64,000 nt of DNA from contig JARKND010000005.1 of assembly GCA_029309925.1 (NCBI GenBank), positions 1,302,001 through 1,366,000 on the forward strand. The letters are read 5' to 3'. The stretch is from Fulvivirgaceae bacterium JP3-4 (GTDB lineage Bacteria > Bacteroidota > Bacteroidia > Cytophagales > Cyclobacteriaceae). The notes under the pieces are model-generated. The model was not told the DNA's origin and made no database searches. It saw nothing but the letters and a program-made list of their open reading frames with translations. This document shows positions 33,457 to 49,707 of this stretch, piece after piece (within the stretch, counting starts at the first letter, position 1; each line of letters begins with the position of its first letter). A program made the translations under genes and the position numbers.

Positions 33457-33466
33457 CCCTTTTATT
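33443..33466 (+). terminator. Rho-independent terminator overlapping the radC-like stop codon
   Basis: AAGGGCT, a short CTTGT loop, then AGCCCTT form a 7-bp stem running into TTATT. The TAG stop lies in the loop and right arm. Confidence 0.75.
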
Positions 33467-33541: not shown

Positions 33542-34213
33542 ATGGAAAAGAAGTATTTGGATGAAACAAAGGTGTATGTAAACCGGGAAAAACGACTTGA
33601 TATAGTACTTGAGTTATTGCACTACGTGTATTTTATATACGACAGGGTTTATGTATTCAAGAATTTTGACGCATACGCTGAAAGTTTTCGCCTTGAAGGT
33701 AAATCTGATGTCTATTGGAACGGATTGCATCATGAAAAGATGATCGATCAAATTCGAATCTGTACCGCATTTGAAAACTATAATAAGGCGGTACTGTTGT
33801 CAAAAGATATTTTAGTCCACACAGTACATCCGAATTCCAACAGGGCGTTTTTTAAACAGCAAAAAGCTGGGCTACCAATTCTGCTTGACGAGTTTCTAAA
33901 GACAAATACCTTCGTTCAAGATGCCGCAAATAAAGAATGGTATTTATCTGGTTTGACACCAAATTTTAATACAATCACATTTTCGCAAACTCTTAAACCT
34001 GGATATCAGGAAGTGATCGGCCTCGACACAAGATTCTTAGGATATCTGATGAACATCAATGTCAAACGAAATAGACTGCATTTCTATAAAAATTACGCGG
34101 GCGCGTTTGAAGTGAACCGGCATCTTGATTCAATCCTTTTTGCAAAAACCTATGGGTTGGAAATGATTAGAAACCAAATCGAGACCTTCCGCAAAATTAC
34201 GTCTACCGCCTAG
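33542..34213 (+). CDS. Hypothetical protein, unknown
   Basis: The 223-residue soluble protein has aromatic-rich helices (LDIVLELLHYVYFIYDRVYVFKNFDAY) and a mixed C-terminal part (GLDTRFLGYLMNINVKRNRLHFYKNY). No family was recognised. Its end overlaps by 11 bp the end of the convergent CoiA-like gene on the other strand. It may be cargo of the ICE. Nothing in the sequence gives a function. Confidence 0.55.
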   Translation: MEKKYLDETKVYVNREKRLDIVLELLHYVYFIYDRVYVFKNFDAYAESFRLEGKSDVYWNGLHHEKMIDQIRICTAFENYNKAVLLSKDILVHTVHPNSNRAFFKQQKAGLPILLDEFLKTNTFVQDAANKEWYLSGLTPNFNTITFSQTLKPGYQEVIGLDTRFLGYLMNINVKRNRLHFYKNYAGAFEVNRHLDSILFAKTYGLEMIRNQIETFRKITSTA

Positions 34214-35690
34214 ATTTATTGGAGGCTCCATAGGTGTTCATGAAGTCCTCAATGCTAATCTTAATGACAAGATTGTCGCTTACTTTTTTAAAAAGATAAG
34301 ATTCACCAATGTCAAAGTAGATTGGTTCATTGGCTACCTGCCATGTTCGCCTTTCATGCTTCCATTGAAAATAATATCTGCCTTTCATTTCTCTCATAAA
34401 AGAGAACTTTCTGTCTCTTATATCTTGAACGACTTCACTCCGCGCGGTAGGAACTTCGTTAGCCCTCCTCATTTCCAATATTCCCTTCTTAATTCGCAGA
34501 TCACCTTGCTCAGCAAGTAACCCATTCCATTTTTCATCATCGGTCAAAATGTCCTTTTCAATATGCGAAATTATGCTCTGAAGATTCGCTGTTAAAAGTG
34601 CTTGCACATTCATGCGAATGGAAGGAACGTAGTCTTCCAATTCCTTCAGTCTAACTTTTAAAGCATCAATTGATTCCTCAATTGCGCTAATATTTGTGGA
34701 CAAGTTGAGCGCAAACAAGTATTGATCATGTGTGTATTGTAGTCTATTGAAGTCTAACTCGGTTGTGATTGGCTTAACCGCGAGAAATAGCGTGTTGAAA
34801 CTTTCCTTTGTTATGAGTTTTACTTGTCTAAAGTTGTTAGCCGTAACGTACTGAAAAGGGACAATCTTTAGGAGCTTGCCATCAATCTCTTTATCTGGTA
34901 GACTTCTCAGAATACACAAGTTGTTTTGTTGGGTCCGTAACTTTTCCTGAAGTTCCCTCCATGCCGGTTTTAGGTTTTTCAACGTGTTGCCATAGGTAGC
35001 CTTTAAATTGCCGATGATTGGATTTAGGTCGTACTCTATATATGAATCGTTAATCAATGATTTTATCATCTGATCCGAAAATGTAGGTACGTCTGCCAGA
35101 ATAGTATTGAAGCGTTCCAATTTTTCTCGATTGGCTTTAATTTGCTCAAACAGCGGTTTGATATGGTCATCTTTCTCTTTAATGACTTTGGTCAATTCGT
35201 CGATTTTTTCGTTGTATTCTTCCTCCAATGGAACAAAGGGATCTTTTTCTTCAGCTTCAAATTCTCGGACTTTCCTCTTCACAACACTACCGAGCTTGAA
35301 ATTATCTCTGAATGACTCAGCATTTATGACCCAGATCATGTTGCCATAAAACCCCTCTCTGACCTTGATAGTGGATGTTGAAATAGAAGAGTTTTGGAAT
35401 TCGATCACTAAACCAGAATCCGTCTTTACATCCGCAGCATGTCGCTCACCGTATTCGTCACACATTGGGACCTCCTGCCACTCAATAGGGAACCTATTTT
35501 TCCACTTCCGGTGCCATTCGGTTTCGTGTTCTTTCCAAGGATCACAATCCCTGTCTATTTTGTGTGCCCAGTGCCAAGTATAAATCTCTCCGCATTTCGC
35601 GATAAGGCGTTCAGCGCAAATTTGGCAAATGGCTGTTGCTCCAGGGCTTGGAGGTATTCTTTTCCTATCATCGTTAATACCAATGGTCAT
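34203..35690 (-). CDS. CoiA-like competence/nuclease protein with long coiled-coil C-terminus
   Basis: The ATG at 35690 gives 495 residues; an in-frame ATG at 35759 would add 23. The N-terminus has a zinc-ribbon-like CQICAERLIAKCG then WHWAHK, and the CoiA nuclease core ERHAADVKTDSGLVIEFQNSSIS. That core holds the D-(X)n-E-X-Q residues of this PD-(D/E)XK branch, and GFYGNMIWVINAE follows. The remaining 330 residues are largely helical and charged. CoiA-type proteins act in competence; stand-alone versions occur in defence islands. It is divergent from the Argonaute operon and could share its promoter region. Confidence 0.75.
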   Translation of the reverse strand: MTIGINDDRKRIPPSPGATAICQICAERLIAKCGEIYTWHWAHKIDRDCDPWKEHETEWHRKWKNRFPIEWQEVPMCDEYGERHAADVKTDSGLVIEFQNSSISTSTIKVREGFYGNMIWVINAESFRDNFKLGSVVKRKVREFEAEEKDPFVPLEEEYNEKIDELTKVIKEKDDHIKPLFEQIKANREKLERFNTILADVPTFSDQMIKSLINDSYIEYDLNPIIGNLKATYGNTLKNLKPAWRELQEKLRTQQNNLCILRSLPDKEIDGKLLKIVPFQYVTANNFRQVKLITKESFNTLFLAVKPITTELDFNRLQYTHDQYLFALNLSTNISAIEESIDALKVRLKELEDYVPSIRMNVQALLTANLQSIISHIEKDILTDDEKWNGLLAEQGDLRIKKGILEMRRANEVPTARSEVVQDIRDRKFSFMREMKGRYYFQWKHERRTWQVANEPIYFDIGESYLFKKVSDNLVIKISIEDFMNTYGASNKSRR

Positions 35691-35887
35691 ATTAGGCAAC
35701 CAATAAAGTTTGTGGAACTGGCCGAGAAAGTCAAATTTATGGTAAGCACAGTGACACACATTGTCACAACTTCTATCAACGTTTTTAAGTGTGCGCTAGA
35801 ATGTTTAGATTAGAAATCTGATTCCTTGACCCACCCGATCCACCGATCTCAGCCCACTAGGAATCAAGCCTTTTAACTTTTCACACC

Positions 35888-35920: not shown

Positions 35921-38221
35921 ATGAAGTTAAACTTTTTTCCCATCAATATTGATTTTGATGAGTACACGTTAAATCGTGAGCCCTTTACATTAGAAAGGCT
36001 GGCGGAGTTGAGACGATTACACAATCACACTCATTCCTTCTTCAGGAACGGCGATGATATTTATATCTCAAACAAGGATGGCGATGAGCAAGGTATAGGA
36101 ACTCCAGCTTCCGTTAAGACTTTTTTGCAACCTGAAATAACATCCTCGCTAATCAAGCATATTTTCTTTAGAACATTTAAAGATAGATTTCCTACGAAGA
36201 TTCCTGTGGACTTTTACCCCTTCACATTTTTTTCAGAGCAGGTCAAGGACGATATCATTTACCAATTTCTTCCACAGTCCCTTCAGAATATTCTTGGCTA
36301 TAAGAAAGTGATTGAGCTTCAGTTGCGACTTATTGATGCTAAAAAACCAATCTTCGGATTTGTAATCAACGTGAGACGAAATTGGGTCTTTTTAAAAACT
36401 TGCGAACAACTCGTATCAGAAGGGTTTCAGTTAAAGAATTTAGATGTTGTCCATTCTGAAGTTCTGCCCGGACTAAAAAATGTCCTTGCGCCAAACGAGG
36501 AATTTGTAGGAGTGGTACAAGAAGTTCTTGGGGATAAGGCGAAGATAGAGACAAATAACGGCGTTGTTGAATATCCCCTGTCCGAATTGTTTCTAAGAAA
36601 AACGCGCTTCAATATTGCCACGTATCTGTCTTATGCGACAAGTACAACAAAGAGCGAAGAGATTCTTCGTGTAGTCGATTCGAAAAAGACGGAATTGCTT
36701 AATCCGAAAAAGTTGCATAGTGAAATTTTAAAAATATCAGAAAGTTTGTTCGCGGCGAAAGATGAGCATGGTGTAAGAACGCCCATTCTCTTCGAGAACA
36801 AAGATGGATTTTCTTATACCGTTGATTATTTACCTGTTGATGTATTCAATTCCATTGAACTCAAAACTCCAACTTTCATCTTTGATCCGGCTGCTGTAAA
36901 AACAGAAAGTTCAAATCCAGATAAAGGATTGTCCAATTTTGGTCCATATGATAGCATCAACTTCGATACTAAGTCACCGCATTTCCTTTGTATATGTCAT
37001 AAAGATAATCGTGGTGCATTTGCAACATTTTTGGCAGAATTAAAAGATGGGATTCCGACTTCAAAGTATTTTAAGAAAGGCTTACAAAAAAAGTATGACC
37101 TCAAGAGTATTAGCTACACAATAGTTGAATTGTCGGTCTATGACTTCGGTGAATACATCAAAGCGATAAGGGACTATAGTGGCAATAAACCAGATGGAGC
37201 GATTATTGAAATTCCTGGTGAATGGAAAGAAATTAGAGGAGAAGGAAATCCCTACTATAGAATTAAGGCAAAATTACTTTCGTTAGAAATACCAGTTCAA
37301 TATATAACATACGATAAAGTTCGAGGAAGCAATGAGTACATATTGAATTCGGTCGCGCTTCAAATTTACGCTAAGCTTGGAGGAACCCCCTGGGTCTTGC
37401 CATCAAGTCGGTCAGTGGACCGAGAGATCATCATTGGAGTTGGACATAGTTGGTTACGCCAAAACCAATTCAGTGGGTCGGCGAATACTCGCGTAGTAGG
37501 AATTACAACATTTTTGTCTAGCGACGGGCAATACTTGTTATCGGACAAGGCTAGAGATGTGCTTTACGAAGAATACTTTGATGAGTTGCTTCGAAGCTTA
37601 AAGAACTCAATCCAAAAGTTAGAGAAAGAGCAGGGTTGGAATAACGGGGACACCATACGTTTGATTTTTCACATCTTTAAACCAATCAAAAATGTAGAGT
37701 TCGAAGTTATCTCAAGACTTGTCACGGAGATAAAACACTACAAAATTCAGTTCGCGTTTGTAACGATTAGTAAATCTCACCCTTACATCCTCTTCGACAC
37801 GCAGCAGCCTGGCTTGCCAAAGTATGGTGGAAACGGGATGAAAGGAGAGTATATACCTAATAGGGGTTCCAATGTGTTTCTTGATTCCAACACTTGTATA
37901 GTGCAAATGTTTGGTGCAAGAGAATTAAAAACCGATTTACATGGAATGAGTAATCCAATACAAATCCGTGTAAGAGTTCCTCAAGGGTCATTCGACAGTG
38001 GTTCAATTGACCACCTTTTATTTAGCGACTTGACTTATATCGTGCAGCAAATTTATTCATTCACATATCTTTCGTGGCGAAGCTTCTTGCCAGCAGAACA
38101 ACCCGCAACGATGTTGTATTCTACCCTTATGTCAAAACTTCTTAGCAGATTAAGAAAAGTGGATGGATGGGATCCTGATAGCTTGAACTATAAGTTAAAA
38201 CGAAAAAAATGGTTTCTCTAG
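35921..38221 (+). CDS. Long prokaryotic Argonaute, predicted catalytically inactive
   Basis: The 766-residue protein has N, L1 and reduced-PAZ-like regions (about 1-330; beta segment FVGVVQEVLGDKAKIET followed by YPLSELFLRKTRFNI). The MID domain (about 330-495) has the 5'-end pocket pattern Tyr445/446...Lys449...Gln460. The PIWI domain (about 500-766) ends FTYLSWRSFLPAEQPATMLYS...WFL. The first catalytic Asp of the DEDX tetrad should be at GVG (Gly508), and the RDG-like site reads HIFKP (Lys587); both acids are missing. The protein is thus probably a guide-directed sensor, as in long-B or short Argonautes, not a slicer. Its end overlaps the next gene by 13 bp. Confidence 0.88.
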   Translation: MKLNFFPINIDFDEYTLNREPFTLERLAELRRLHNHTHSFFRNGDDIYISNKDGDEQGIGTPASVKTFLQPEITSSLIKHIFFRTFKDRFPTKIPVDFYPFTFFSEQVKDDIIYQFLPQSLQNILGYKKVIELQLRLIDAKKPIFGFVINVRRNWVFLKTCEQLVSEGFQLKNLDVVHSEVLPGLKNVLAPNEEFVGVVQEVLGDKAKIETNNGVVEYPLSELFLRKTRFNIATYLSYATSTTKSEEILRVVDSKKTELLNPKKLHSEILKISESLFAAKDEHGVRTPILFENKDGFSYTVDYLPVDVFNSIELKTPTFIFDPAAVKTESSNPDKGLSNFGPYDSINFDTKSPHFLCICHKDNRGAFATFLAELKDGIPTSKYFKKGLQKKYDLKSISYTIVELSVYDFGEYIKAIRDYSGNKPDGAIIEIPGEWKEIRGEGNPYYRIKAKLLSLEIPVQYITYDKVRGSNEYILNSVALQIYAKLGGTPWVLPSSRSVDREIIIGVGHSWLRQNQFSGSANTRVVGITTFLSSDGQYLLSDKARDVLYEEYFDELLRSLKNSIQKLEKEQGWNNGDTIRLIFHIFKPIKNVEFEVISRLVTEIKHYKIQFAFVTISKSHPYILFDTQQPGLPKYGGNGMKGEYIPNRGSNVFLDSNTCIVQMFGARELKTDLHGMSNPIQIRVRVPQGSFDSGSIDHLLFSDLTYIVQQIYSFTYLSWRSFLPAEQPATMLYSTLMSKLLSRLRKVDGWDPDSLNYKLKRKKWFL

Positions 38222-39087
38222 AAGAAAAGATCTCCTACTTATCGCAGGTGAAAGCCAATCCAAAACTGCAGAGTTTTTACAATCTACTATATAGAAAAGC
38301 AATAGCCCCACCGCCACCAAGCACCACCATTGAGATTGATGAAATATATTACGGTATTGTAGCTGCTATTGCGCACCAAAAGAAAAATGACTTTCACAAT
38401 TTCTATGCTCGGATTTCGAAGAGGATAGTTGACAAAGACTCACCCTCACCTTTTATTTACGATGACGGACTAATATTCTCAACTATTGTAGGCGTCAAAC
38501 TGTTTGATTCCGACAAAACTTGGATTCGTAACGTCATTTCTATTCGTTCAAGCTCACAAGTAACGACAACATTTAGCCATCTCTTGGAAGACGACTTCTT
38601 AAGCAAGTCAAATTTGCCGGAAATAGTGATACCATTCTTAGAGCTTACCGAACAGCTATCAGGTCACGAGCCAATTCTTGACAAAGCTTATGGCAAGATT
38701 GCGTCCGACATTGACCTTTATTCAAATAGCAACGACTTTGTGATAATCATGACTTTAAGGTCCTTTGATGTTATCGTACAATCGAAATCATCTCATGCGG
38801 GTGATTTTGAAAGACTGAGAGCATTTGAAGGAAAGTTCGTGACCCGTGTTGGGTATTTATCCGTTGCACTCTATAACATCCTGCTGTTTGCCTTCATCTA
38901 TGGTTGTATTAAGGGGCTGGCGCTAGTTCCAGCATTTAAAGATAGACTTAATGATTTTGCACTATTGATCAGTGTCATTGGCACTAGTTTCAGCAATTTA
39001 TTTTCATTTTTTAAGAATAAGATGAAATTATTGATTTACAATTTATTGGGGTATGCAAAGCATTTAGAAAAGAAACGTCTGTCATGA
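38209..39087 (+). CDS. Two-TM membrane protein coupled to the Argonaute gene, putative effector
   Basis: The 292-residue protein has a soluble N-terminal part of about 215 residues (IDEIYYGIVAAIAHQKKNDFHNFYARISKR). Two membrane helices follow near residues 220-245 (YLSVALYNILLFAFIYGCIKGLALV) and 252-272 (FALLISVIGTSFSNLFSFF), then a short basic tail. It overlaps the Argonaute stop by 13 bp and ends 1 bp before the ATPase gene. Some inactive long Argonautes are known to pair with membrane effectors that damage the cell envelope on target detection; such a role is inferred here. No family was recognised. Confidence 0.75.
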   Translation: MVSLEEKISYLSQVKANPKLQSFYNLLYRKAIAPPPPSTTIEIDEIYYGIVAAIAHQKKNDFHNFYARISKRIVDKDSPSPFIYDDGLIFSTIVGVKLFDSDKTWIRNVISIRSSSQVTTTFSHLLEDDFLSKSNLPEIVIPFLELTEQLSGHEPILDKAYGKIASDIDLYSNSNDFVIIMTLRSFDVIVQSKSSHAGDFERLRAFEGKFVTRVGYLSVALYNILLFAFIYGCIKGLALVPAFKDRLNDFALLISVIGTSFSNLFSFFKNKMKLLIYNLLGYAKHLEKKRLS

Positions 39088-39088
39088 T

Positions 39089-41008
39089 ATGAAGGTATCA
39101 AAGTCAAACCGCAGAGTCTTAATAGATAACATTCTCAAGCTCCCAAATGTTTTCGGCCGTTACTCCGAATATGAGGGGTTGCTAACTTTTCTTGAAAAAA
39201 TATGGGATTTAAGAGCGATGCCATCAACAGACCCGAGGTACAAGACTGCGTTGGAAGACATTCGTCAGCACATGGTGAATAACAATGATTGGTCCATTGG
39301 CGAATTGTTTTATGATCGTCTAAAGGTTTTAGAATCAACAGATAAAATATTTATTAAGTTGATTGACACGTGGATTAGCCCGGAGGTCCGATATGATAAA
39401 GAAGAGATTGTTCGCTTTGTGGCAATTATCAATAGCGCCCTTGCCGACACTCCGGTTAAGCTCGTGCTGTCTGACTATTTTGAAGGGTTACCTGTCTATC
39501 GGTTAAAGGACGCTGACAAGTATAATGACCTTCCGCTAGATATAGTGGAGAACACAATTCCTTTTTATAAGGAGGTTTCAAAAATTAAAATGTATCCCTG
39601 CTTTGTATTGAGGTATGACAAATGGGATGACTATCATTACAAAACAACTTTCCATCTTTACTACTATGGAAAAGATCGTGAACAAAGCGCCATCGGTACA
39701 GTCAAAATCCTTCACAATACAGAGAAAGAGACTTGGGATGTGCTAAAGGACGAATTCTATTCTCTTGATGGGGAGTATTGTTCTCTGGGACAGGTAGACA
39801 CTTATTATCTAAAATTAAAGACATTACTAGGTCTGAATTTTCAGAGCGTTGCTTTAGCACTTAGAGACTGCGCATTGTTTCCAAAAATACAAGACAAGTT
39901 TGAAAACCACGAGGGATTCAAAAGTTCTCTATTGAGAAATGATGACGCGGATAAGGTGCTCCGAACAATTAGATATATTCTAAACGGATTAAACTTAAAG
40001 GATTGTTTTAAGTTTAGTTTCACGTTCAAACCACAGTACGCTGATAGTAACATTAATTTAAATTTCGATTTCGATTACACTTCTGAATTCCCAAACAGAG
40101 TCTACGCGCTAATCGGTAAAAATGGAACAGGCAAGACTTCCTTACTAGCGGCGCTCGCAAGTGAGTTAAGAAAGAACGACACTCCAATTATTCTTCCAAG
40201 AAATCCCTTGCATGCCAAGGTGTTCACTGTTTCCTACAGTTTCTTTGATAGATTTGACATTCCGGATAGCGATGTCGCATTTAACTATGTCTATTGTGGA
40301 CTGAGAAGGCGCGAAGGAGGTTTCTTAAGTCAGGAAGATTTGCTTACTCGACTTTACGCGGCTGCCAACAAGATTAGGGACAGAAAGTTTGTAAAAGAAT
40401 GGTATCTCACCTTGCATGATTTTGTTTCCGAAGACTTGCTAGAAATCGCTTTCAATATTACGTACTATCGCGGAAAGGTCGGAAGTGTAGAATTAAAAGA
40501 GGATGGTTTACCTAGCTTTTTCAATAAATTGAGTTCAGGTCAAAATATTCTTGTATTTGTGATCAGTGAAATTCTTTCATTGATTCGACCCTATTCTTTA
40601 ATACTCTACGATGAACCTGAGACGCACCTTCATCCGAACGCAATTAGCAGCCTAATGGCAACTATTTTTAATCTCGTTAGGCGGTTCGAGTCGTTTTGCA
40701 TTATAGCGACACATTCACCGATCATTGTTCAAGAACTTCCCTCAAGATGTATCTATGTATTAGATAGAGAAAATGAAAACATTACATTAAGAACCTTGGA
40801 ACGCGAGTCCTTCGGCGAAAACTTAACCATCATAACGGAGGAGATTTTTGGAAATATCGAGGTGCCAAAACATTATCAAACTCTGTTGGAGGAACTTGTT
40901 AACAGCGGTAAAAAGTACAGTGAAATCATGTCGCTTTTAGCGAATGAAAATCTCCCGATTACGCTCAATACAAGACTTTATGTTAAGGCTCTACTAAAAC
41001 AACAATGA
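39089..41008 (+). CDS. ABC-type ATPase with AbiJ-like N-terminal domain (Septu PtuA-like)
   Basis: The 639-residue protein has an N-terminal domain (about residues 1-165) with LLTFLEKIWDLRAMPSTDPRYKTALEDI, QHMVNNNDW and ISPEVRYDKEEI, the pattern of AbiJ N-terminal domains seen in abortive-infection proteins. The C-terminal half is an SMC/ABC-like ATPase: Walker A GKNGTGKTS (343-351), signature LSSGQN, Walker B LILYDEPETHLHP with Asp508/Glu509, and a switch IIATHSP. Together with the HNH gene that overlaps it by 4 bp, it resembles PtuA of Septu systems. It is the third gene of the Argonaute operon, 1 bp after the membrane protein. Confidence 0.82.
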   Translation: MKVSKSNRRVLIDNILKLPNVFGRYSEYEGLLTFLEKIWDLRAMPSTDPRYKTALEDIRQHMVNNNDWSIGELFYDRLKVLESTDKIFIKLIDTWISPEVRYDKEEIVRFVAIINSALADTPVKLVLSDYFEGLPVYRLKDADKYNDLPLDIVENTIPFYKEVSKIKMYPCFVLRYDKWDDYHYKTTFHLYYYGKDREQSAIGTVKILHNTEKETWDVLKDEFYSLDGEYCSLGQVDTYYLKLKTLLGLNFQSVALALRDCALFPKIQDKFENHEGFKSSLLRNDDADKVLRTIRYILNGLNLKDCFKFSFTFKPQYADSNINLNFDFDYTSEFPNRVYALIGKNGTGKTSLLAALASELRKNDTPIILPRNPLHAKVFTVSYSFFDRFDIPDSDVAFNYVYCGLRRREGGFLSQEDLLTRLYAAANKIRDRKFVKEWYLTLHDFVSEDLLEIAFNITYYRGKVGSVELKEDGLPSFFNKLSSGQNILVFVISEILSLIRPYSLILYDEPETHLHPNAISSLMATIFNLVRRFESFCIIATHSPIIVQELPSRCIYVLDRENENITLRTLERESFGENLTIITEEIFGNIEVPKHYQTLLEELVNSGKKYSEIMSLLANENLPITLNTRLYVKALLKQQ

Positions 41009-41838
41009 AGAAATTGGTTCACTTTCCAGATAATTGTATGGATTTCTTTCGGGATGCAGTCGAACGAAAACAGGATGGTCCGTTAAAGAGCCGGTTGAAA
41101 TCGCTTGAGGCCTCCATTAATTTGGAGTACGATAATTATGAGGCAGAATTCAGAACCAAAACGATCGAAAAGCTTAAACCCAATGCCTTTTTTGATTTAT
41201 ACAAGGACGATTTACTATCTCTTTATAGCTATCAAAGCTACATCATTCGGCAGCTTCGCACACGGTTATCAGGACTTCAAGCCGCAACAATTAGAAATAC
41301 GTGTCAAAATTGCACACTTATTCCCATTCAATCGATGGATCACATTCTACCAAAAGAATTGTATCCCGAATTTTGCATTAATCCGTTGAATTTATTTCCG
41401 TCATGTCAGACTTGTAACGCCCATAAATCAAAGTCATTGACAAAAGGGGGAAAGCGGTTATTCCTGAATCTATTTCTCGATGAACTGCCCGAAGAACAAT
41501 ATCTTTTCGCTGATGTTAGGCACGGAAAAGATGGAATCGATTTCAAGTTCCATCTTAAATTCTCAAAGAATATTGACAAAAGCCTGGCGACCTTAATTGC
41601 TAGCCATTATGCTTTGCTCCATTTGCCTGAAAGGATGCGACTCTCTTCTGGGTCCTACTTTGCCGAGTTTAGAAATACACTGGCGGCTGCACGGAAGAGA
41701 CTCACTAATAGGGAAGTTGTTCAAATGGTGGTCGAAAAAACGGCCGATGATAAGTTTTGTTATGGAACAAATTACTGGAAAAGTGTCCTGGAGGAAGCTC
41801 TTGTTAATGATGCCATCTTTCTTTCTCAACTGAAATAA
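41005..41838 (+). CDS. HNH endonuclease (Septu PtuB-like)
   Basis: The 277-residue protein has an HNH fold with zinc cysteines: Cys100-X2-Cys103 (TCQNC), then MDHILPKELYPE with Asp112-His113, and SCQTCNAHKSK with Cys134-X2-Cys137 and Asn138. The helical flanks have no named domain. It overlaps the ATPase stop by 4 bp. In Septu, PtuB is the nuclease that works with the PtuA ATPase. It is the last gene of the four-gene operon; the next gene is convergent. Confidence 0.87.
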   Translation: MKKLVHFPDNCMDFFRDAVERKQDGPLKSRLKSLEASINLEYDNYEAEFRTKTIEKLKPNAFFDLYKDDLLSLYSYQSYIIRQLRTRLSGLQAATIRNTCQNCTLIPIQSMDHILPKELYPEFCINPLNLFPSCQTCNAHKSKSLTKGGKRLFLNLFLDELPEEQYLFADVRHGKDGIDFKFHLKFSKNIDKSLATLIASHYALLHLPERMRLSSGSYFAEFRNTLAAARKRLTNREVVQMVVEKTADDKFCYGTNYWKSVLEEALVNDAIFLSQLK

Positions 41839-41969: not shown

Positions 41970-44189
41970 CTAGCGCTCTTCCTTTGGCAGCAGGTCCCTT
42001 AGCTTTACCGCGAAGGCTTTGCCATCTGCAATCTGTCTTTTTACATATTCGAAGGTCAACTCACTGACTAGAGCTGTGTCTTCAATACTTTGAAGGTCAA
42101 AAACAAAGTATTGGTCATAAAGAGGAGAGTAATTGACATTCTCCAAATCACTCTTTGAAGAAACCTTGATTTCATCGTTGACTATGAGGTAAAACCCTAA
42201 AGCATTTACGTCTTGCTTTGAATACAACAACAGCATCCTCGACGTGAAAATTTCTTGACGAAGGGAAAAATCAAGTTTAACCGCAAGGTTAAACTTCTTA
42301 GCCACATTAATCCATTGCAAATGTTCCGTGGATTCAACAGGTGCCATTAGAACACCGATGTCGTCAGGATGAAAACTTCTGTCTCCTTCAATTTCTCTCG
42401 GCAGAGAAAGGGTTGTTGTTGAGGGTTTGTTCTTAAAAATGGTATAAATATGATAGGACAATTTTTCCCTTTGAGAAATCTTGCTTTGAAGATGCTCTAC
42501 GACCCTTTTAAGAAACTCTTTTAGTTCATTTAAACCAGAATCACGCTTGCCAGGACGAATTGGAAATGCGCCTAAACCAGGAAGAATTTCGTGGAAACCG
42601 CGTAACGCAATTGAATTGCTTCCTGGATACAAAACATACGATCCTCCAGTTCTTCTAATGGCATCCCGATAGGCATGCATCTTTAATATGTCAGCGTTTT
42701 TATATATGCCCTGTTTATTTTCCTCTTTTTGTAAATCGAGCTCATCTCGATCGAGCTGTCCTATCAAGTCGTTTAAGTTTGCAACCTTATATTTCGCATC
42801 GAAATGAATATGTACAATTAGTTCTTCCGTTTCTGCCACCTCTTCACTTAGTCCAAATGGCCAAATTGACAATGTATAATCCGGCCTCATTTTTAGAGAC
42901 CAACTTCCAGCCTCGGGATAGGATGCATTGGAAAAGGCACGATTATAATTGAATTTAATGTTCAGTTTCCGTTTACTTGACTCATAGGTTCCTCGCAGGG
43001 CGGTGTGGCTCCCTTGCTTAAGGCTAAGTCCTAAATTTTTTTCTGTTTGATTTAAGAGTTGATTTATTTCTGCTTTAGGGATGTTGAAAAACGTTTCAAT
43101 TAATTCAAGGAGCTTAAAAAATATCCAATACTCATAGAGCGTAGCGATATCCTTTTTACCTCCCTGATAAACGTCATTGCCACCCTCCCAAATCAATTTG
43201 GCCGCAAGGTCAAACATCAACCAAACCCGCAGCACTTCACGATAGCCCTCCTTTCTTTGCAATACCGGGCTGTTTAGTCGCAATGTTTCCGGTTCTCTTA
43301 TTTCTTTGAAAATGCTATGACTTAGAAATTGACTTAAGTGTTCGTTCAAATATGAGGCCTCGCTAAATAGTCTCGAGCCCTTCTCGGATACTGCAGCGAT
43401 ATCCGAACAAAAGTTGGAAAGAGTTGTCAATGCGTGTTTGACAAAACGATTTTCTGGAGTATCGACAGAATCAGTTTTTCGGAGAACTGAAATTCGCGCA
43501 GGCACCGAAGGCAAGCCTAGCAAGTTTTGTGAGCTGACTTCAGCCCGCATGTTGGATTTTGCGACTTCTTTAATATTTCTTGAAGTCCATCTTTTGCCAC
43601 GTCTAGCATCGATCTCATCCTCATCTGCCTCCCACTTAGTGGCAGGACGGGAAATAATTCGATGTAATGAATCATCAAATTCTTCTGTATGGACTATTGA
43701 TTTAACGAAGGCGAATCTTTGGTAGAGGGTTTGGCTATCCTTCGTGAAATCGATCTGGAGGTTCTGGCTGACTGGAGATTCTGCCTGGAGCAACAGTTCG
43801 GTACATTTTTCAGTTATGTCGCCTAGCATGTCTCTGTAATCATTTCGATACTCCGCTTTTAAAGAGCGAACCTCTAACTCAACAAAACCGATTTCCTTAT
43901 CTTTAAGACCGATATACAAACGTAGTGTCCCAACGAAAATGTTTGGCGCGATTGTGCCGAGATGACTGTAACGAGCGTGTGGCTGTACTATTTGACTAGA
44001 ATCATCAAGGAGACGTACTTCTGCGTTATTAAAGGAATAGTCATACGTTTGGCCTTCTACGATCTGATACCTCGCTTCTAGGTGCGCTTGCGAATCCGCA
44101 ACATCGAATAGAGTATTTTCCCTTCTGGCATCAATGAAGAGTAATAATTCTTCCTTAATATGGCCAAGATCGATTTGCATTCTAGTCAA
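41970..44189 (-). CDS. DUF2357/McrC-like PD-(D/E)XK nuclease subunit
   Basis: The 739-residue protein has a DUF2357-type N-terminal part (RSLKAEYRNDYRDMLGDITEKC, near residue 110, is typical). A nuclease core near residues 432-465 (MRPDYTLSIWP then HIHFDAKYKV) supplies the D and D-X-K residues, followed by MHAYRDAIRRTGGSYVLYPG. The last 140 residues are an extra domain I do not recognise. In LlaJI-like and McrBC systems this subunit cuts DNA when driven by the McrB-like motor. Its start overlaps the McrB-like gene by 4 bp. Confidence 0.82.
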   Translation of the reverse strand: MTRMQIDLGHIKEELLLFIDARRENTLFDVADSQAHLEARYQIVEGQTYDYSFNNAEVRLLDDSSQIVQPHARYSHLGTIAPNIFVGTLRLYIGLKDKEIGFVELEVRSLKAEYRNDYRDMLGDITEKCTELLLQAESPVSQNLQIDFTKDSQTLYQRFAFVKSIVHTEEFDDSLHRIISRPATKWEADEDEIDARRGKRWTSRNIKEVAKSNMRAEVSSQNLLGLPSVPARISVLRKTDSVDTPENRFVKHALTTLSNFCSDIAAVSEKGSRLFSEASYLNEHLSQFLSHSIFKEIREPETLRLNSPVLQRKEGYREVLRVWLMFDLAAKLIWEGGNDVYQGGKKDIATLYEYWIFFKLLELIETFFNIPKAEINQLLNQTEKNLGLSLKQGSHTALRGTYESSKRKLNIKFNYNRAFSNASYPEAGSWSLKMRPDYTLSIWPFGLSEEVAETEELIVHIHFDAKYKVANLNDLIGQLDRDELDLQKEENKQGIYKNADILKMHAYRDAIRRTGGSYVLYPGSNSIALRGFHEILPGLGAFPIRPGKRDSGLNELKEFLKRVVEHLQSKISQREKLSYHIYTIFKNKPSTTTLSLPREIEGDRSFHPDDIGVLMAPVESTEHLQWINVAKKFNLAVKLDFSLRQEIFTSRMLLLYSKQDVNALGFYLIVNDEIKVSSKSDLENVNYSPLYDQYFVFDLQSIEDTALVSELTFEYVKRQIADGKAFAVKLRDLLPKEER

Positions 44190-45958
44190 GCTTCAGCAAA
44201 ACTTGCAAATCCGTTATGAATCAAACTCCTGTACATACGTCCAATTTTTTCAAGGCTTAAAGGGTATTTTACCACTCGAGGGTCGCTGAAATCGAATTGA
44301 TGGTTAGAGAAAATTTCTTTTTCAATATCCGAGACTGTTTCTGCGATACAGAATCGTCCAAGAGTCAACAAAATATCAGTCAGTTTTCTTCTAGATCCAT
44401 GAACCTTAGGCAATAATTTTTGTAATAATGCGGCATCGATTTTCTCAGCTTCATTCAAGTTCGGACTTAAGAGTGAAAGAAAATATATCAGTCGATGAAT
44501 TTCATAAGCAGTTCTATAACCAAATTCTGCTCCACATGCCTTTAACGGCTCGAAAAAATTTAGCAGTGTTTCGTTGAGTTCAGAAGAACTTTCTATTTCG
44601 CTTTTTGCTGCAGCAAGTTCAAGGAATACTGTCGAAAGATTAGTGCCGCGCCCGTCAATTTCAGTAAGATTTACTTTTGCTGGTTTAGAAAGGAAACTTT
44701 GCATTTCAACCTCGCTGAGACGAAATTCAATCGTGTTTGCTCTATCAAGTACCTTTGGGCTAAACATATTTGTCGTCTCATCTATATTCACTGTACCAAT
44801 CACAAATACGTTTTTGGGAAGAATTATATTGGCAGGAACTTCGCCCCGCGACCCCCCGGAATAGAGGGGTATTGGCTCGTTAGACTCCATGGAACTTAGG
44901 AAATCTGCGAAGTATCGCTCAACGTGACTTAAATTCATCTCATCTAGAATTATAAAATGAGGGGTCATCGGATGATCAATTGCATGCAGTATTATATCTA
45001 ACACCCCGGAATCTGGTTTTACGTATTCCTCCTTATTTAGAGCATTAGGATAACCTAAGAGCGGTTCCCTATTCGTCCAATCGGATCCGACCGGGACTAT
45101 CGTGAATTGATTCCGCTCTTTACAAATCCATCTTGCGAAAGCTTGCGCCAACTTAGTTTTACCAGAACCGGACAAACCACACAAAATTACAAATGGCTTT
45201 GTTAGGAGCGAGGCAACAAAGCGGTTGATTAGGCTTTTTGAGTAGGTCAATCCAGCGGACTCAACGGCGGTAAGAAATGCTGTCGAAATATCTGTTGATC
45301 CTCCCTCTCCCGGAATGGCCTTTTGCTTTGCAACATTTTTTCCCTCTAACCATTTTTCAAACTGTTCCGACGTAACGCCAAACACTTCATGAAATCCATA
45401 GGCCCTAATTTGTTCTTCAAACCCTCTCTCAAAAGGATCACTTTGAGAAGTTCCTTTCCAACCCATATTTCGGAGATGTGATTCCAAAATCTTTTTCGCT
45501 AAGGGGCCAATTTCGTTACGCGTAAAAATTGGGCTTAAGTCGTATTTGGTTTCGCTTGCTCCTTCACTAAAACCTACAGCCAGGCCAGCTTTGTTCAATG
45601 CATATGCAAGATTTGTATAAACCTTGTCGTCCATATCTGCTCTTCGTAGCGTGCCCACCATTTCGCCTTTTCGAGCCTTTTTAAATTGTGTTATGAGTTC
45701 TACATGACTAAATATTATTGAGAAAAGGAGTAACGCCTCTTGCGACGAGTGGTCAAATGATTTGACTTGATCCCATACTTGCGGTATGACTTCGTTAATG
45801 TCACCAGCGAGCATTTTTCGACCTTGAGTTCGATCAAGCTTTATTTCTTGTATGTTGTCTAGGATTTGGTTCGCAGGATATTTGCGAATTAGCTCGATTA
45901 ATTTGAAATAACCGTTCTTTGTCAATGAGACGGTGTGGGATTCTAAACCGATTGGCAT
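44186..45958 (-). CDS. McrB-like AAA+ motor of a restriction system
   Basis: The 590-residue protein has a C-terminal AAA+ core: Walker A GLSGSGKTK near residues 257-265, Walker B FIILDEMNLSHVERYFADFL, and the McrB consensus GTVNIDETTNMFSPKVLDRA, whose N-X-X-D element is the McrB GTP-binding signature. The N-terminal 230 residues are helical and probably recognise DNA. It lies between the methyltransferase and nuclease genes, with 1-4 bp spacing. It is a hexameric translocase that activates the DUF2357 nuclease. Confidence 0.87.
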   Translation of the reverse strand: MPIGLESHTVSLTKNGYFKLIELIRKYPANQILDNIQEIKLDRTQGRKMLAGDINEVIPQVWDQVKSFDHSSQEALLLFSIIFSHVELITQFKKARKGEMVGTLRRADMDDKVYTNLAYALNKAGLAVGFSEGASETKYDLSPIFTRNEIGPLAKKILESHLRNMGWKGTSQSDPFERGFEEQIRAYGFHEVFGVTSEQFEKWLEGKNVAKQKAIPGEGGSTDISTAFLTAVESAGLTYSKSLINRFVASLLTKPFVILCGLSGSGKTKLAQAFARWICKERNQFTIVPVGSDWTNREPLLGYPNALNKEEYVKPDSGVLDIILHAIDHPMTPHFIILDEMNLSHVERYFADFLSSMESNEPIPLYSGGSRGEVPANIILPKNVFVIGTVNIDETTNMFSPKVLDRANTIEFRLSEVEMQSFLSKPAKVNLTEIDGRGTNLSTVFLELAAAKSEIESSSELNETLLNFFEPLKACGAEFGYRTAYEIHRLIYFLSLLSPNLNEAEKIDAALLQKLLPKVHGSRRKLTDILLTLGRFCIAETVSDIEKEIFSNHQFDFSDPRVVKYPLSLEKIGRMYRSLIHNGFASFAEA

Positions 45959-45959
45959 A

Positions 45960-47171
45960 TTATTTAGGCTTTACTAAAATCAATAGTTCCTTCACATCTC
46001 GGTTCCTATCCTGTTGCCGTCCCATTGTCATGTGAAGATGATTTAACGTTCGAATTGTCACCTCATGATTTCTAAACATCTCCCTCGCGCATTCCAAAAG
46101 TTCCTCCATAGATATCATACCTGTGTCGCTATAACTCAAAACAAGTGAGCAGTTGTTTGCGGCGATCAATTCAAACATTGCAATAAAGGCTTTTTTCACC
46201 TGTGTGCGAATACTAAAGGGCGATTGATGCCTTTCCTCTCGATAGCGCCCCTTTACAAACTTTCCATTCTTAGTTTGAATGGAAGGATAGTCGTAAAGCA
46301 CAATTGTTTCTAATGCGTGATAAAACCTGCTGTAGTGAACAAAGCAATAAGGAGGATCCGCGTAGACTGTTGCATCTTTCAAATCTTTCAGACACTCCAG
46401 ATAGTCAAGGGATACAACTTTATGCGGCAAAAATGTCGGGATTTTTGGAAGATCGGATAGCGCGGTTCGTACCTTTCTTTCAAAATATTCCGTAATCGAT
46501 TTTCTTCGATAAATCAAAATGTCGTTCATCGAAGAGTTAGTTTTTGCGTCACGGTACTGTGCATAATGTCCTGTGCCCTGGCTGTTATAAGCCATTGCAT
46601 ACATGAGTGAACAGAGCAATGTATTATACGATGCAGACGTTCGAAAATCTTCTATTGCTTTTCTTATCGAATCGATCCAAGCGCACTGTTCAGCGCTCCA
46701 CCAAGTGCCTGAGTAATACTTGGTGAACAGATGCCATTTGTTCGAAAAACCGTGAGATACTAATTGTCTGTTGTGCTTTTCTATCTTATTGAAAGCCGAA
46801 AGCGTAAGCTTTTCAGGATATTTGTAATCCTCGATAAGGAGAGCATAATGCTTTTTGAAATACTTGTTAGCACGATCTAAAATAATTTCCGCGCTAACAG
46901 TGCCATCATCGTAGTCTGTTAAATACGCTTTCCCAAGGGTTGCGGAATAAAACTGAATATCATTTGAGATCATTGGAACTTGCCTGCCGAGCGCGCCGGC
47001 TAACGTTCCCGACCCGGCAAACAAATCACACAAGATTCCACCATTGTAAACCTCTTCAATCCCCTTAATAACAAACGGAAGGATTTTAGTCTTCGATCCC
47101 ATGTATTTAACAAACTGAATTGAGCTTCTTGGCATCAATTCATTAGATGTCATCACCATTTGCGTCTTCAA
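45960..47171 (-). CDS. D12-class N6-adenine DNA methyltransferase (Dam-like)
   Basis: The 403-residue protein has KYMGSKTKILPFV at the N-terminus (SAM-binding motif X region). CDLFAGSGTLAGAL (motif I, near residue 52) follows, then ADPPYCFVHYSRFY (motif IV, near residues 270-283) and a late LVLSYSDTG (motif VI). It methylates adenine and so most likely protects host sites from the linked McrBC-like nuclease. The recognition sequence is unknown. It overlaps the XRE gene upstream by 29 bp and precedes the McrB-like gene by 1 bp. Confidence 0.9.
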   Translation of the reverse strand: MKTQMVMTSNELMPRSSIQFVKYMGSKTKILPFVIKGIEEVYNGGILCDLFAGSGTLAGALGRQVPMISNDIQFYSATLGKAYLTDYDDGTVSAEIILDRANKYFKKHYALLIEDYKYPEKLTLSAFNKIEKHNRQLVSHGFSNKWHLFTKYYSGTWWSAEQCAWIDSIRKAIEDFRTSASYNTLLCSLMYAMAYNSQGTGHYAQYRDAKTNSSMNDILIYRRKSITEYFERKVRTALSDLPKIPTFLPHKVVSLDYLECLKDLKDATVYADPPYCFVHYSRFYHALETIVLYDYPSIQTKNGKFVKGRYREERHQSPFSIRTQVKKAFIAMFELIAANNCSLVLSYSDTGMISMEELLECAREMFRNHEVTIRTLNHLHMTMGRQQDRNRDVKELLILVKPK

Positions 47172-48567: not shown

Positions 48568-49707
48568 ATGATCCGATTTCCATACATTCGCATAAGACAA
48601 CGAGGAGAAACGTTTTTTCTGACCAAGTTTTCTGTTAGTTACCTATTCGATAAAGTTGACCTTCATTTTCGCGACCCTTATATCCATCTTCAAGATGAAC
48701 GTTATCAGGTCAAAAACAATATCTATTTAGATTCGATTCGCAAAAAAGGATTGGATCTAGAAACTGATAATGAAGAAGGTGTACAGAGACGTCTGCAATT
48801 GAATCGCATCCTGGATATTAAGAAATACATCGACGAGGACGTTTCAAATTACTTTCCTAATTCCGTTCTTATATCAGCCGATACTTCAATGATTGACGAT
48901 TTTGATCAAGAGCAATATCTCAATCTCGAGCAAAATGAAATCGGTTATTTCGAGTTTCCGGACGAAGCTAGGTTCTCTGTAATCGACGGACAACATCGCT
49001 TGGCGGGACTTTTTCAGGCGTCAAAAATTGATAAGGATAATTTTGAGGTTCCAGTCGTTCTCCTACTAGATGCAGGCTTGGCAGTTGCTGCTAAGTTATT
49101 TAGTGATATTAATGGGAAGCAAAAGGCAGTTAGCAAATCGTTGATATATGATCTTCTTGAACATGTGGATAAAAAAGAAGTTGGCGGAATCAAAAAATAT
49201 CATTTGATCTGTCAAAAATTCTATACTGACCAAAAGTCTCCATTGTATCGGCAGATAAAGATGTTAGGAATAGGAAGCGGATCAATTTCTCAAAGCTTCT
49301 TTATAGACTTATCGCTCAAGCATGTCGAACCAACACTTAGCAGCGTATCCACGCAAGAATTATATAACCAATTATTCTACTACTTCAGAAGCTATCAAAA
49401 GACCTTCCCGACTGATTGGCCGGTTCCTCTTCAGGAAATGCCCGAATCGGAACGCGATCAATACTCCGACGAAATTCTCAAAGTCGAAAGAAGTCAGCTA
49501 TTGAAAACCAATGGTTTTGGGGCAATCATGCGGGCCTTCCCGGACATTTATAAAATGTCTGGGCAGACCTTTGATGGATACATGCATGTCATTTCAAAAT
49601 TGCAAGGGAAGGTATTTTGGAAAAGGCGCGAATTGCAACAGGCTGGCGGTGGCGCTGAGCTTCAGAAGTTCTTATACAATCAAATAGTTACTGCATTAAA
49701 GCAATAG
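48568..49707 (+). CDS. DGQHR-domain protein (DndB-like)
   Basis: The 379-residue protein carries the signature DGQHRLAGL (residues 140-148), preceded by an acidic strand and followed by FEVPVVLLLDAGLAVAAKLFSDINGKQKAVSKSLIYDL, the standard DGQHR family layout. DndB, which controls DNA phosphorothioation, and DpdB of the 7-deazaguanine system belong to this family. No dndA/C/D/E or dpd genes are nearby, so the protein probably belongs to another system. It is followed 2 bp later by a HARE-type winged helix gene. Confidence 0.87.
   Translation: MIRFPYIRIRQRGETFFLTKFSVSYLFDKVDLHFRDPYIHLQDERYQVKNNIYLDSIRKKGLDLETDNEEGVQRRLQLNRILDIKKYIDEDVSNYFPNSVLISADTSMIDDFDQEQYLNLEQNEIGYFEFPDEARFSVIDGQHRLAGLFQASKIDKDNFEVPVVLLLDAGLAVAAKLFSDINGKQKAVSKSLIYDLLEHVDKKEVGGIKKYHLICQKFYTDQKSPLYRQIKMLGIGSGSISQSFFIDLSLKHVEPTLSSVSTQELYNQLFYYFRSYQKTFPTDWPVPLQEMPESERDQYSDEILKVERSQLLKTNGFGAIMRAFPDIYKMSGQTFDGYMHVISKLQGKVFWKRRELQQAGGGAELQKFLYNQIVTALKQ

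Follow-up and report, generated by a model that had tools for sequence, protein, structure and literature searches.

Several described defence systems bear on the gene pair considered here. The retron-Eco7 PtuAB pair arrests growth with loss of tRNA-Tyr (PMC11555353), and the Septu system EcB88 defends through cleavage of tRNA-Tyr, a defence that was abolished by changing H75/N91 of its PtuB (PMC13096335). Septu of E. coli ATCC25922 is reported to act on nicked DNA, and Eco4 likely does not act on tRNA (PMC11555353). A list published in 2013 included AbiJ-NTD3 domains fused to an ABC ATPase, and such domains were proposed to contact viral components (PMC3710099). In this report we discuss an ATPase gene and an HNH nuclease gene in a 64,000-nucleotide stretch of DNA from Fulvivirgaceae bacterium JP3-4 (contig JARKND010000005.1, positions 1,302,001 to 1,366,000; G000:C5:1302001-1366000 in our notation), which as a whole is referred to as the window. 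The two genes form a pair akin to Ea59/Ea31 of phage lambda and, more distantly, to Septu, with an extra AbiJ-type domain at the front of the ATPase.

Both proteins have the PADLOC candidate system PDC-M01 (models PDC-M01A and PDC-M01B) as their best family, and both are matched nearly end to end. Lambda falls into the same group: Ea59 scores 667 bits against PDC-M01A and 611 bits against a PtuA model, and Ea31 scores 375 bits against PDC-M01B. In direct comparison, Ea59 (NC_001416) is 28.7% identical to the window ATPase over window residues 174-636 (7e-44) and Ea31 is 25% identical to the window HNH protein over residues 109-273 (1e-9). The lambda ea59-ea31 genes (L061 2935-5399), annotated as AAA family ATPase and HNH endonuclease, are the same two genes in the same order and with the same 4-bp overlap. 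As had been claimed in an earlier note on this DNA, the window genes overlap by 4 bp; the letters they share are ATGA at 41005-41008. Ea59, however, lacks AbiJ_NTD3 and is 525 residues long, compared with 639 for the window ATPase. Because Ea59/Ea31 share genes, order and PDC-M01 models with the window pair, the latter can be described as an Ea59/Ea31-type pair plus an added front domain. A phage collection holds 25 records that match the ATPase, one of them over at least 80% of the protein, and its lambdoid copies match from residue 174 on. Lambda Ea59/Ea31 may itself be a prophage-borne Septu-like module; among the open-licence papers listed in literature searches, none by its title or abstract opening links Ea59 to Septu or tests a pair of the window type.

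The earlier note had also recognized an AbiJ N-terminal pattern in the ATPase, and the Pfam profile AbiJ_NTD3 bears this out. It matches residues 3-142 with 116.2 bits (cut-off 32.5), and this region carries DLRAMPSTDPRYKTA at residues 40-54 and VNNNDW at residues 63-68. Residues N64, N65, W68, and N115 are conserved in 7/7 fused copies and in 9/9 other AbiJ_NTD3 copies, six of which (L012-L017) are close kin of each other. Residues S46, D48, R50, Q60, H61, and D67 are conserved in the seven fused copies and in eight of the nine others, with L031 as the outlier. The site QHxxNNxDW is common to the fused copies and to AbiJ-NTD3 proteins of other types. In the latter the domain precedes either an Abi_C domain (six of six in L012-L017, above cut-off) or a nuclease-like part whose DUF559 match is weak and falls below cut-off (L011, 8001-9074, and L051, 5342-6808, whose proteins are 56% identical). 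L031 (1180-2574) has an end similar to that of L011 and L051, and a second Pfam match is absent from it. That several C-terminal partner types stand behind one front domain suggests that what they have in common is an input and not a substrate, as was argued before in PMC3710099.

Residues 1-165 are predicted to form six helices and a beta hairpin (mean predicted local distance difference test score, pLDDT, 86.0). With this model, Foldseek returned zero matches at E ≤0.001 in PDB and BFVD. The best VIA row had Z 4.5 over 40 residues; Cas13a rows came next at 4.0, bromodomain rows scored below 4, and we take all of these as chance. The front-domain profile matched nothing among PDB sequences at E 1. 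These searches prove neither a new fold nor a binding partner.

Behind the front domain lie a middle domain and an ABC ATPase core. In the core, the ABC motifs are intact, with Walker A GKNGTGKT at 343-350, the signature LSSGQ at 481-485, DEPE at 508-511, and THS at 541-543. An alignment of ten ATPases, with that of the window among them, shows no variation at most Walker A residues, at SSG within the signature, or in DEPE and THS; W179, D181, G203, S232, Y240, and others in the middle domain are likewise invariant. The middle domain has conserved WDDYG and SLGQ...YY stretches that are common to most Ea59-type ATPases seen; the L053 ATPase is without the WDD motif. Pfam AAA_15 and AAA_21, both ABC ATPase families, match the C-terminal half of the protein.

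The earlier note's description of the protein as a PtuA-like ABC ATPase agrees with the predicted structure. A full-length model built from a 17-row alignment reached a mean pLDDT of 83.0 and a predicted template modelling (pTM) score of 0.65. When it was compared with PDB by Foldseek, the first 41 rows were, by title, retrons Ec78/Eco7 and Ec83, retron I-A, or E. coli PtuA/Septu. In the VIA comparison with PDB, the top 15 rows were by title Septu or retron PtuA (Z 15.1-16.3). Retron and Septu PtuA entries filled the top 17 rows (Z 14.2-16.3) and other ABC ATPases followed from 13.8 down, where rows within 1 Z are regarded as tied and rows 16-17 are therefore not set apart from the other ABC ATPases. 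The best row (Z 16.3) aligned 276 residues with a root-mean-square deviation (rmsd) of 5.2. The PtuA matches mostly cover model residues 301-639, starting at 301-307 in most rows and at 289 or 293 in a few, and it is for residues 301-639 that this comparison speaks; stretches outside were barely probed. In two E. coli Septu PtuA entries, chain residue 1-2 aligns at model residue 306-307, so that residues 1-150 and approximately 165-305 have no counterpart in front of Septu PtuA. Some 40-60 residues of the retron PtuA chains precede the aligned part. Judged from these models, the ATPase core (the last ~335 residues) is nearest in fold to PtuA.

The partner protein carries the motifs CQNC (100-103), DHILP (112-116), and NLFPSCQTC (129-137), in which an alignment of 11 HNH partners (window included) shows no variation at C100, C103, H113, N129, C134, and C137. 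Its Pfam match to HNH is weak (E 0.051, below cut-off). The PtuB model matches with 1.2e-8 over residues 110-144 (35 residues), a weaker match than that of PDC-M01B, and PtuB is thus not the best partner model for this protein. As a single sequence it had unrelated matches only in PDB; as a profile it matched PtuB at E 0.008-0.14 and other HNH proteins better, down to 2e-5. The kinship of the partner to PtuB is consequently drawn mainly from the motif and from PADLOC.

To follow the fusion across genomes, 28 related loci were considered, defined as ATPase-core loci outside the window genome. Left out of this count are L054-L060 (ATPase part only), L051, which is an NTD3 protein of another kind, L024, whose ATPase match is weak, and L022/L023, which fall at the same places as L039/L040; the near-identical L045 and L046 are both counted. 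By tblastn, an HNH homologue accompanies the ATPase in 26/28. As for the other two loci, L048 stops where its ATPase gene does, and in L050 the place of the HNH gene is taken by an open reading frame of 298 aa. The front domain is matched in six of the 28 (L009, L010, L018, L019, L020, and L062) and gives no match in 22. In L020 (5908-7880, Proteus mirabilis) the NTD3-bearing ATPase is split into two open pieces and the HNH gene is still open; this locus was kept out of the tree, as were L046, L048, and L066.

In a tree of 25 cores (window included, front domain cut off), the six AbiJ_NTD3 carriers form one side of one branch with support 100/99, and the trait changes once, in 100% of 200 bootstrap trees. 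The five carriers in the tree from outside the window genome are L009, L010, L018, and L019, all Bacteroidota records, and L062, a gut phage. Long end branches are flagged for L053, L047, and L039, and odd composition for L069, L065, L018, L044, and L052. Because the carriers form one side of one branch, a single acquisition of AbiJ_NTD3 is the simplest account of the distribution; a gain is the simpler reading, yet it is not proven, as the root of the tree was not inferred. Among genomes of the phylum, 4/395 have an ATPase match, and the front domain is covered only in the window's own. A total of 107 plasmid records match the ATPase, four of them with one place covering at least 80%; among the best 40 of the 107, the match starts at residue 1-32 in those four, whereas in the remaining 36 it starts at residue 152 or later. 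A scan of viral contigs gave no match with the single ATPase protein and 16 loci, several of them partial, with alignment A1.

The coordinates of the features are collected in Table 1. In the window, the ATPase and HNH genes follow a long prokaryotic Argonaute (pAgo) gene and the gene for its associated protein Aga, the four standing in tandem on the + strand. The pAgo gene (35921-38221) overlaps Aga (38209-39087) by 13 bp, and 1 bp separates the Aga stop from the ATPase start; the four genes are probably co-transcribed here.

Table 1. Features of the ATPase/HNH pair and of the genes directly upstream, in window positions
Feature	Coordinates	Strand	Evidence
ATPase gene, PDC-M01A-type with AbiJ_NTD3, 639 aa	39089-41008	+	PADLOC PDLC04240, E 1.1e-141, residues 11-634
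HNH partner gene, PDC-M01B type (Ea31-like), 277 aa	41005-41838	+	PADLOC PDLC04266, E 5.8e-55, residues 1-275
AbiJ_NTD3 domain of the ATPase (residues 1-150)	39089-39538	+	PF18860, E 1.3e-33
Middle domain common to Ea59-type ATPases (~residues 161-305)	39569-40003	+	Invariant columns; Ea59 match; start of PtuA match
PtuA-like (predicted fold) ABC ATPase core (~residues 306-639) plus stop codon	40004-41008	+	ABC motifs; VIA Z ≤16.3 to PtuA
HNH/Cys4 motif of the partner (C100 to K141)	41302-41427	+	Alignment of 11 sequences, motif positions
Long pAgo gene and Aga, upstream	35921-39087	+	PADLOC pAgo_II PDLC02379, 2e-251; Aga_Unknown PDLC02409, 2.4e-83

The genes surrounding the pair look like a defence island. 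On the left, colinearity with one (L075) of two genomes from the same genus runs up to window position 33463, which is probably the left border of the island; the right flank has no match in either of the two. Beside the pAgo genes lies a 518-residue protein with a short match to the CoiA N-terminal domain (34203-35759, - strand; 9.5e-7). On the other side, 41970-47171 (- strand) encodes a DUF2357-PDDEXK_7 protein, an AAA ATPase (PADLOC PDC-M26A), and a D12 adenine methyltransferase, an McrBC-like or restriction-modification cluster, and 48568-49707 encodes a DndB-family protein (PF14072, 1.4e-18) preceded by a 250-residue protein with a membrane segment by eye. ARAGORN detected no tRNA within the window. 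Along its length, the window pAgo shares 62.5% identity with the pAgo of G021 (L036), which also has Aga after it; a Kiwa KwaB-like gene (PF16162, 3.2e-39; L036 1975-2934) lies directly before that pAgo-Aga pair.

How might such a pair work? Our proposal, the likeliest of those considered and in our view evenly balanced between right and wrong, is that the pair is a PDC-M01 abortive-infection module in which AbiJ_NTD3, gained in front, sets when the ATPase lets the HNH protein act. By analogy with PtuA, the ATPase subunits would assemble in the PtuA manner and keep the HNH protein inactive. On infection, AbiJ_NTD3 would meet a phage-made or infection-made cue through its QHxxNNxDW site, and the state of the ATPase would change. 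The HNH nuclease might then cut a vital nucleic acid, either tRNA or DNA (the sequence does not allow the target to be predicted), and growth of the infected cell would stop. A broader idea, which we offer tentatively, is that AbiJ_NTD3 is a portable infection trigger added once to an Ea59/Ea31-type effector, the lambda pair then being a trigger-less, Septu-like suicide effector carried in a prophage. The same ATPase-HNH core occurs in nature with and without AbiJ_NTD3, with one trait change on the tree, and these natural pairs, together with the tie to lambda Ea59/Ea31, make the idea of an AbiJ-domain sensor testable. The lambda homologues also tie the question to a very well-studied laboratory system, in which two genes gain a testable role.

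A number of points weigh against this proposal. The TM-scores that Foldseek gives for the PtuA matches are low, at 0.17-0.31 by query length with rmsd 8.7-16.9 over the first 41 rows, because only the C-terminal half of the model matches. In the window ATPase, the AbiJ_NTD3 match spans profile positions 2-138/167 and does not reach full length, leaving the last ~29 positions unmatched. It ends at position 137-143/167 in each of the six intact copies of the fusion that were scanned (window, L009, L010, L018, L019, and L062), whereas in nine other NTD3 proteins, which are not fused to the ATPase, it runs to 159-167, that is, ~25 positions further. As the match stops earlier in the fused copies, their AbiJ_NTD3 is shortened or altered at its end, and it may work differently. 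Since the core persists without the domain (carriers 6/28), AbiJ_NTD3 may only tune or localize the core, and the pair that lambda keeps lacks it and could serve phage biology, not defence. PtuA systems differ in their reported target, as discussed above, which makes the output of the window pair a guess. Finally, among the open-licence papers listed in our searches, none was seen to report protection by or toxicity of a PDC-M01 pair, or to test whether AbiJ_NTD3 contacts viral components and releases an effector.

Other explanations have to be considered alongside the proposed trigger role. AbiJ_NTD3 could be an assembly, localization, or substrate-recruiting domain, and phage sensing could fall to the middle domain or to the ATPase, as it would in relatives that lack the front domain. 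The retention of the ATPase in the 22 related loci without AbiJ_NTD3 would be expected under this explanation, as would the middle domain's own conserved columns (ten sequences), though the WDD motif is absent from L053. A polar, near-invariant motif that recurs across several C-terminal partner types is, on the other hand, beyond the needs of a passive spacer, and we regard such a non-sensing domain as possible, with the balance tilted against it. The lambda homologues, which lack the front domain, also raise the question of whether pairs of this kind are phage- or plasmid-borne nucleic-acid processing enzymes (recombination, segregation, superinfection control) and not defence systems. The ATPase matches on plasmid records and viral contigs given above are consistent with such a role. 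Against it, defence-like genes adjoin three NTD3-bearing loci, namely AbiTii (L010), type I restriction S with YhcG (L018), and a weak HEPN match (L009), in a scan that took in chosen neighbouring genes at these three of the six loci. Moreover, the AbiJ-type front domain is elsewhere known to occur in proteins of the abortive-infection type (PMC3710099; Abi_C in L012-L017), and a processing role instead of defence is in our estimation improbable.

The tight spacing of the four tandem genes, and in particular the 1-bp gap, suggested a single system of pAgo, membrane-type Aga, ATPase, and HNH protein in which the Argonaute triggers the Septu-like pair. Recurrence does not support it. By tblastn, a pAgo or Aga match lies beside 0/28 related PDC-M01 loci, whose flanks are mostly 1-8 kb long and shorter at contig ends. 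The ATPase/HNH pair lies beside 0/4 other pAgo-Aga loci (L036, L037, L038, and L041, of which L036 ends 482 bp past Aga). PADLOC calls the upstream genes pAgo_II and Aga_Unknown. Aga is most hydrophobic near residues 214-243 and 250-268, in agreement with a long-B pAgo accompanied by a membrane protein (BPAM), a combination that has been studied as a stand-alone system (PMC10620215). The pAgo-Aga and ATPase-HNH pairs behave as two modules, not as recurring partners, and one four-gene system is scarcely credible. The pair might instead be an ordinary Septu whose PtuA has an unremarkable N-terminal extension. The PADLOC PtuA model PDLC00282 does match ATPase residues 172-619 (2e-78); because it also matches lambda Ea59 at full length, the border between PtuA and PDC-M01A is not sharp. 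The nearest solved folds are those of PtuA, and the retron PtuA chains do have residues in front. However, the PDC-M01A/B models clearly beat those of PtuA/PtuB, and the structural comparison with PtuA for which the earlier note had called did not place the first 165 residues in an ordinary PtuA extension: on the VIA alignments, where E. coli Septu PtuA begins well behind the front domain, such an extension was rejected. Together with the spacing of the Walker motifs (see below), this leaves an ordinary Septu very improbable.

The comparison with known systems can accordingly be drawn as follows. Septu and the retron Ec78/Ec83 PtuA/PtuB systems likewise have an ABC ATPase gene followed by an HNH gene, and the H113-N129 spacing of the window HNH protein (16) is the same as that of H75-N91 in Septu EcB88 PtuB (PMC13096335). 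In contrast, the Walker A to Walker B distance is 159 residues in the window ATPase (K349-D508) versus 273 in Septu EcB88 PtuA (mutated K43-D316; PMC13096335), and the PtuA layout, with the ATPase domain starting from the N-terminus and a long distance between these motifs, is not that of the window protein. The earlier note's suggestion of a Septu variant holds with respect to the core fold, and does not with respect to family: the window pair is not Septu proper and belongs to PADLOC PDC-M01, a group that also includes lambda Ea59/Ea31. AbiJ-NTD3 proteins with an Abi_C, DUF559-like, or ABC ATPase partner have the same N-terminal domain with the same conserved site as the window ATPase; in the window the domain is joined to an Ea59-type ATPase that has an HNH gene beside it, and this combination is not named in the passages of PMC3710099 considered here. 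Within PDC-M01, the model PDLC04240 is 639 residues long, and a Tenacibaculum plasmid homologue, an AbiJ_NTD3 carrier as well, reaches 1339 bits against this model, which implies that the fused layout was already inside PADLOC-DB 2023. The window copy differs from this homologue in being 38-39% identical to it and in sitting 1 bp after pAgo-Aga. The fusion of AbiJ_NTD3 to an ABC ATPase is thus already known from the 2013 list and the PADLOC model, and the window pair is an addition to a known, uncharacterized kind.

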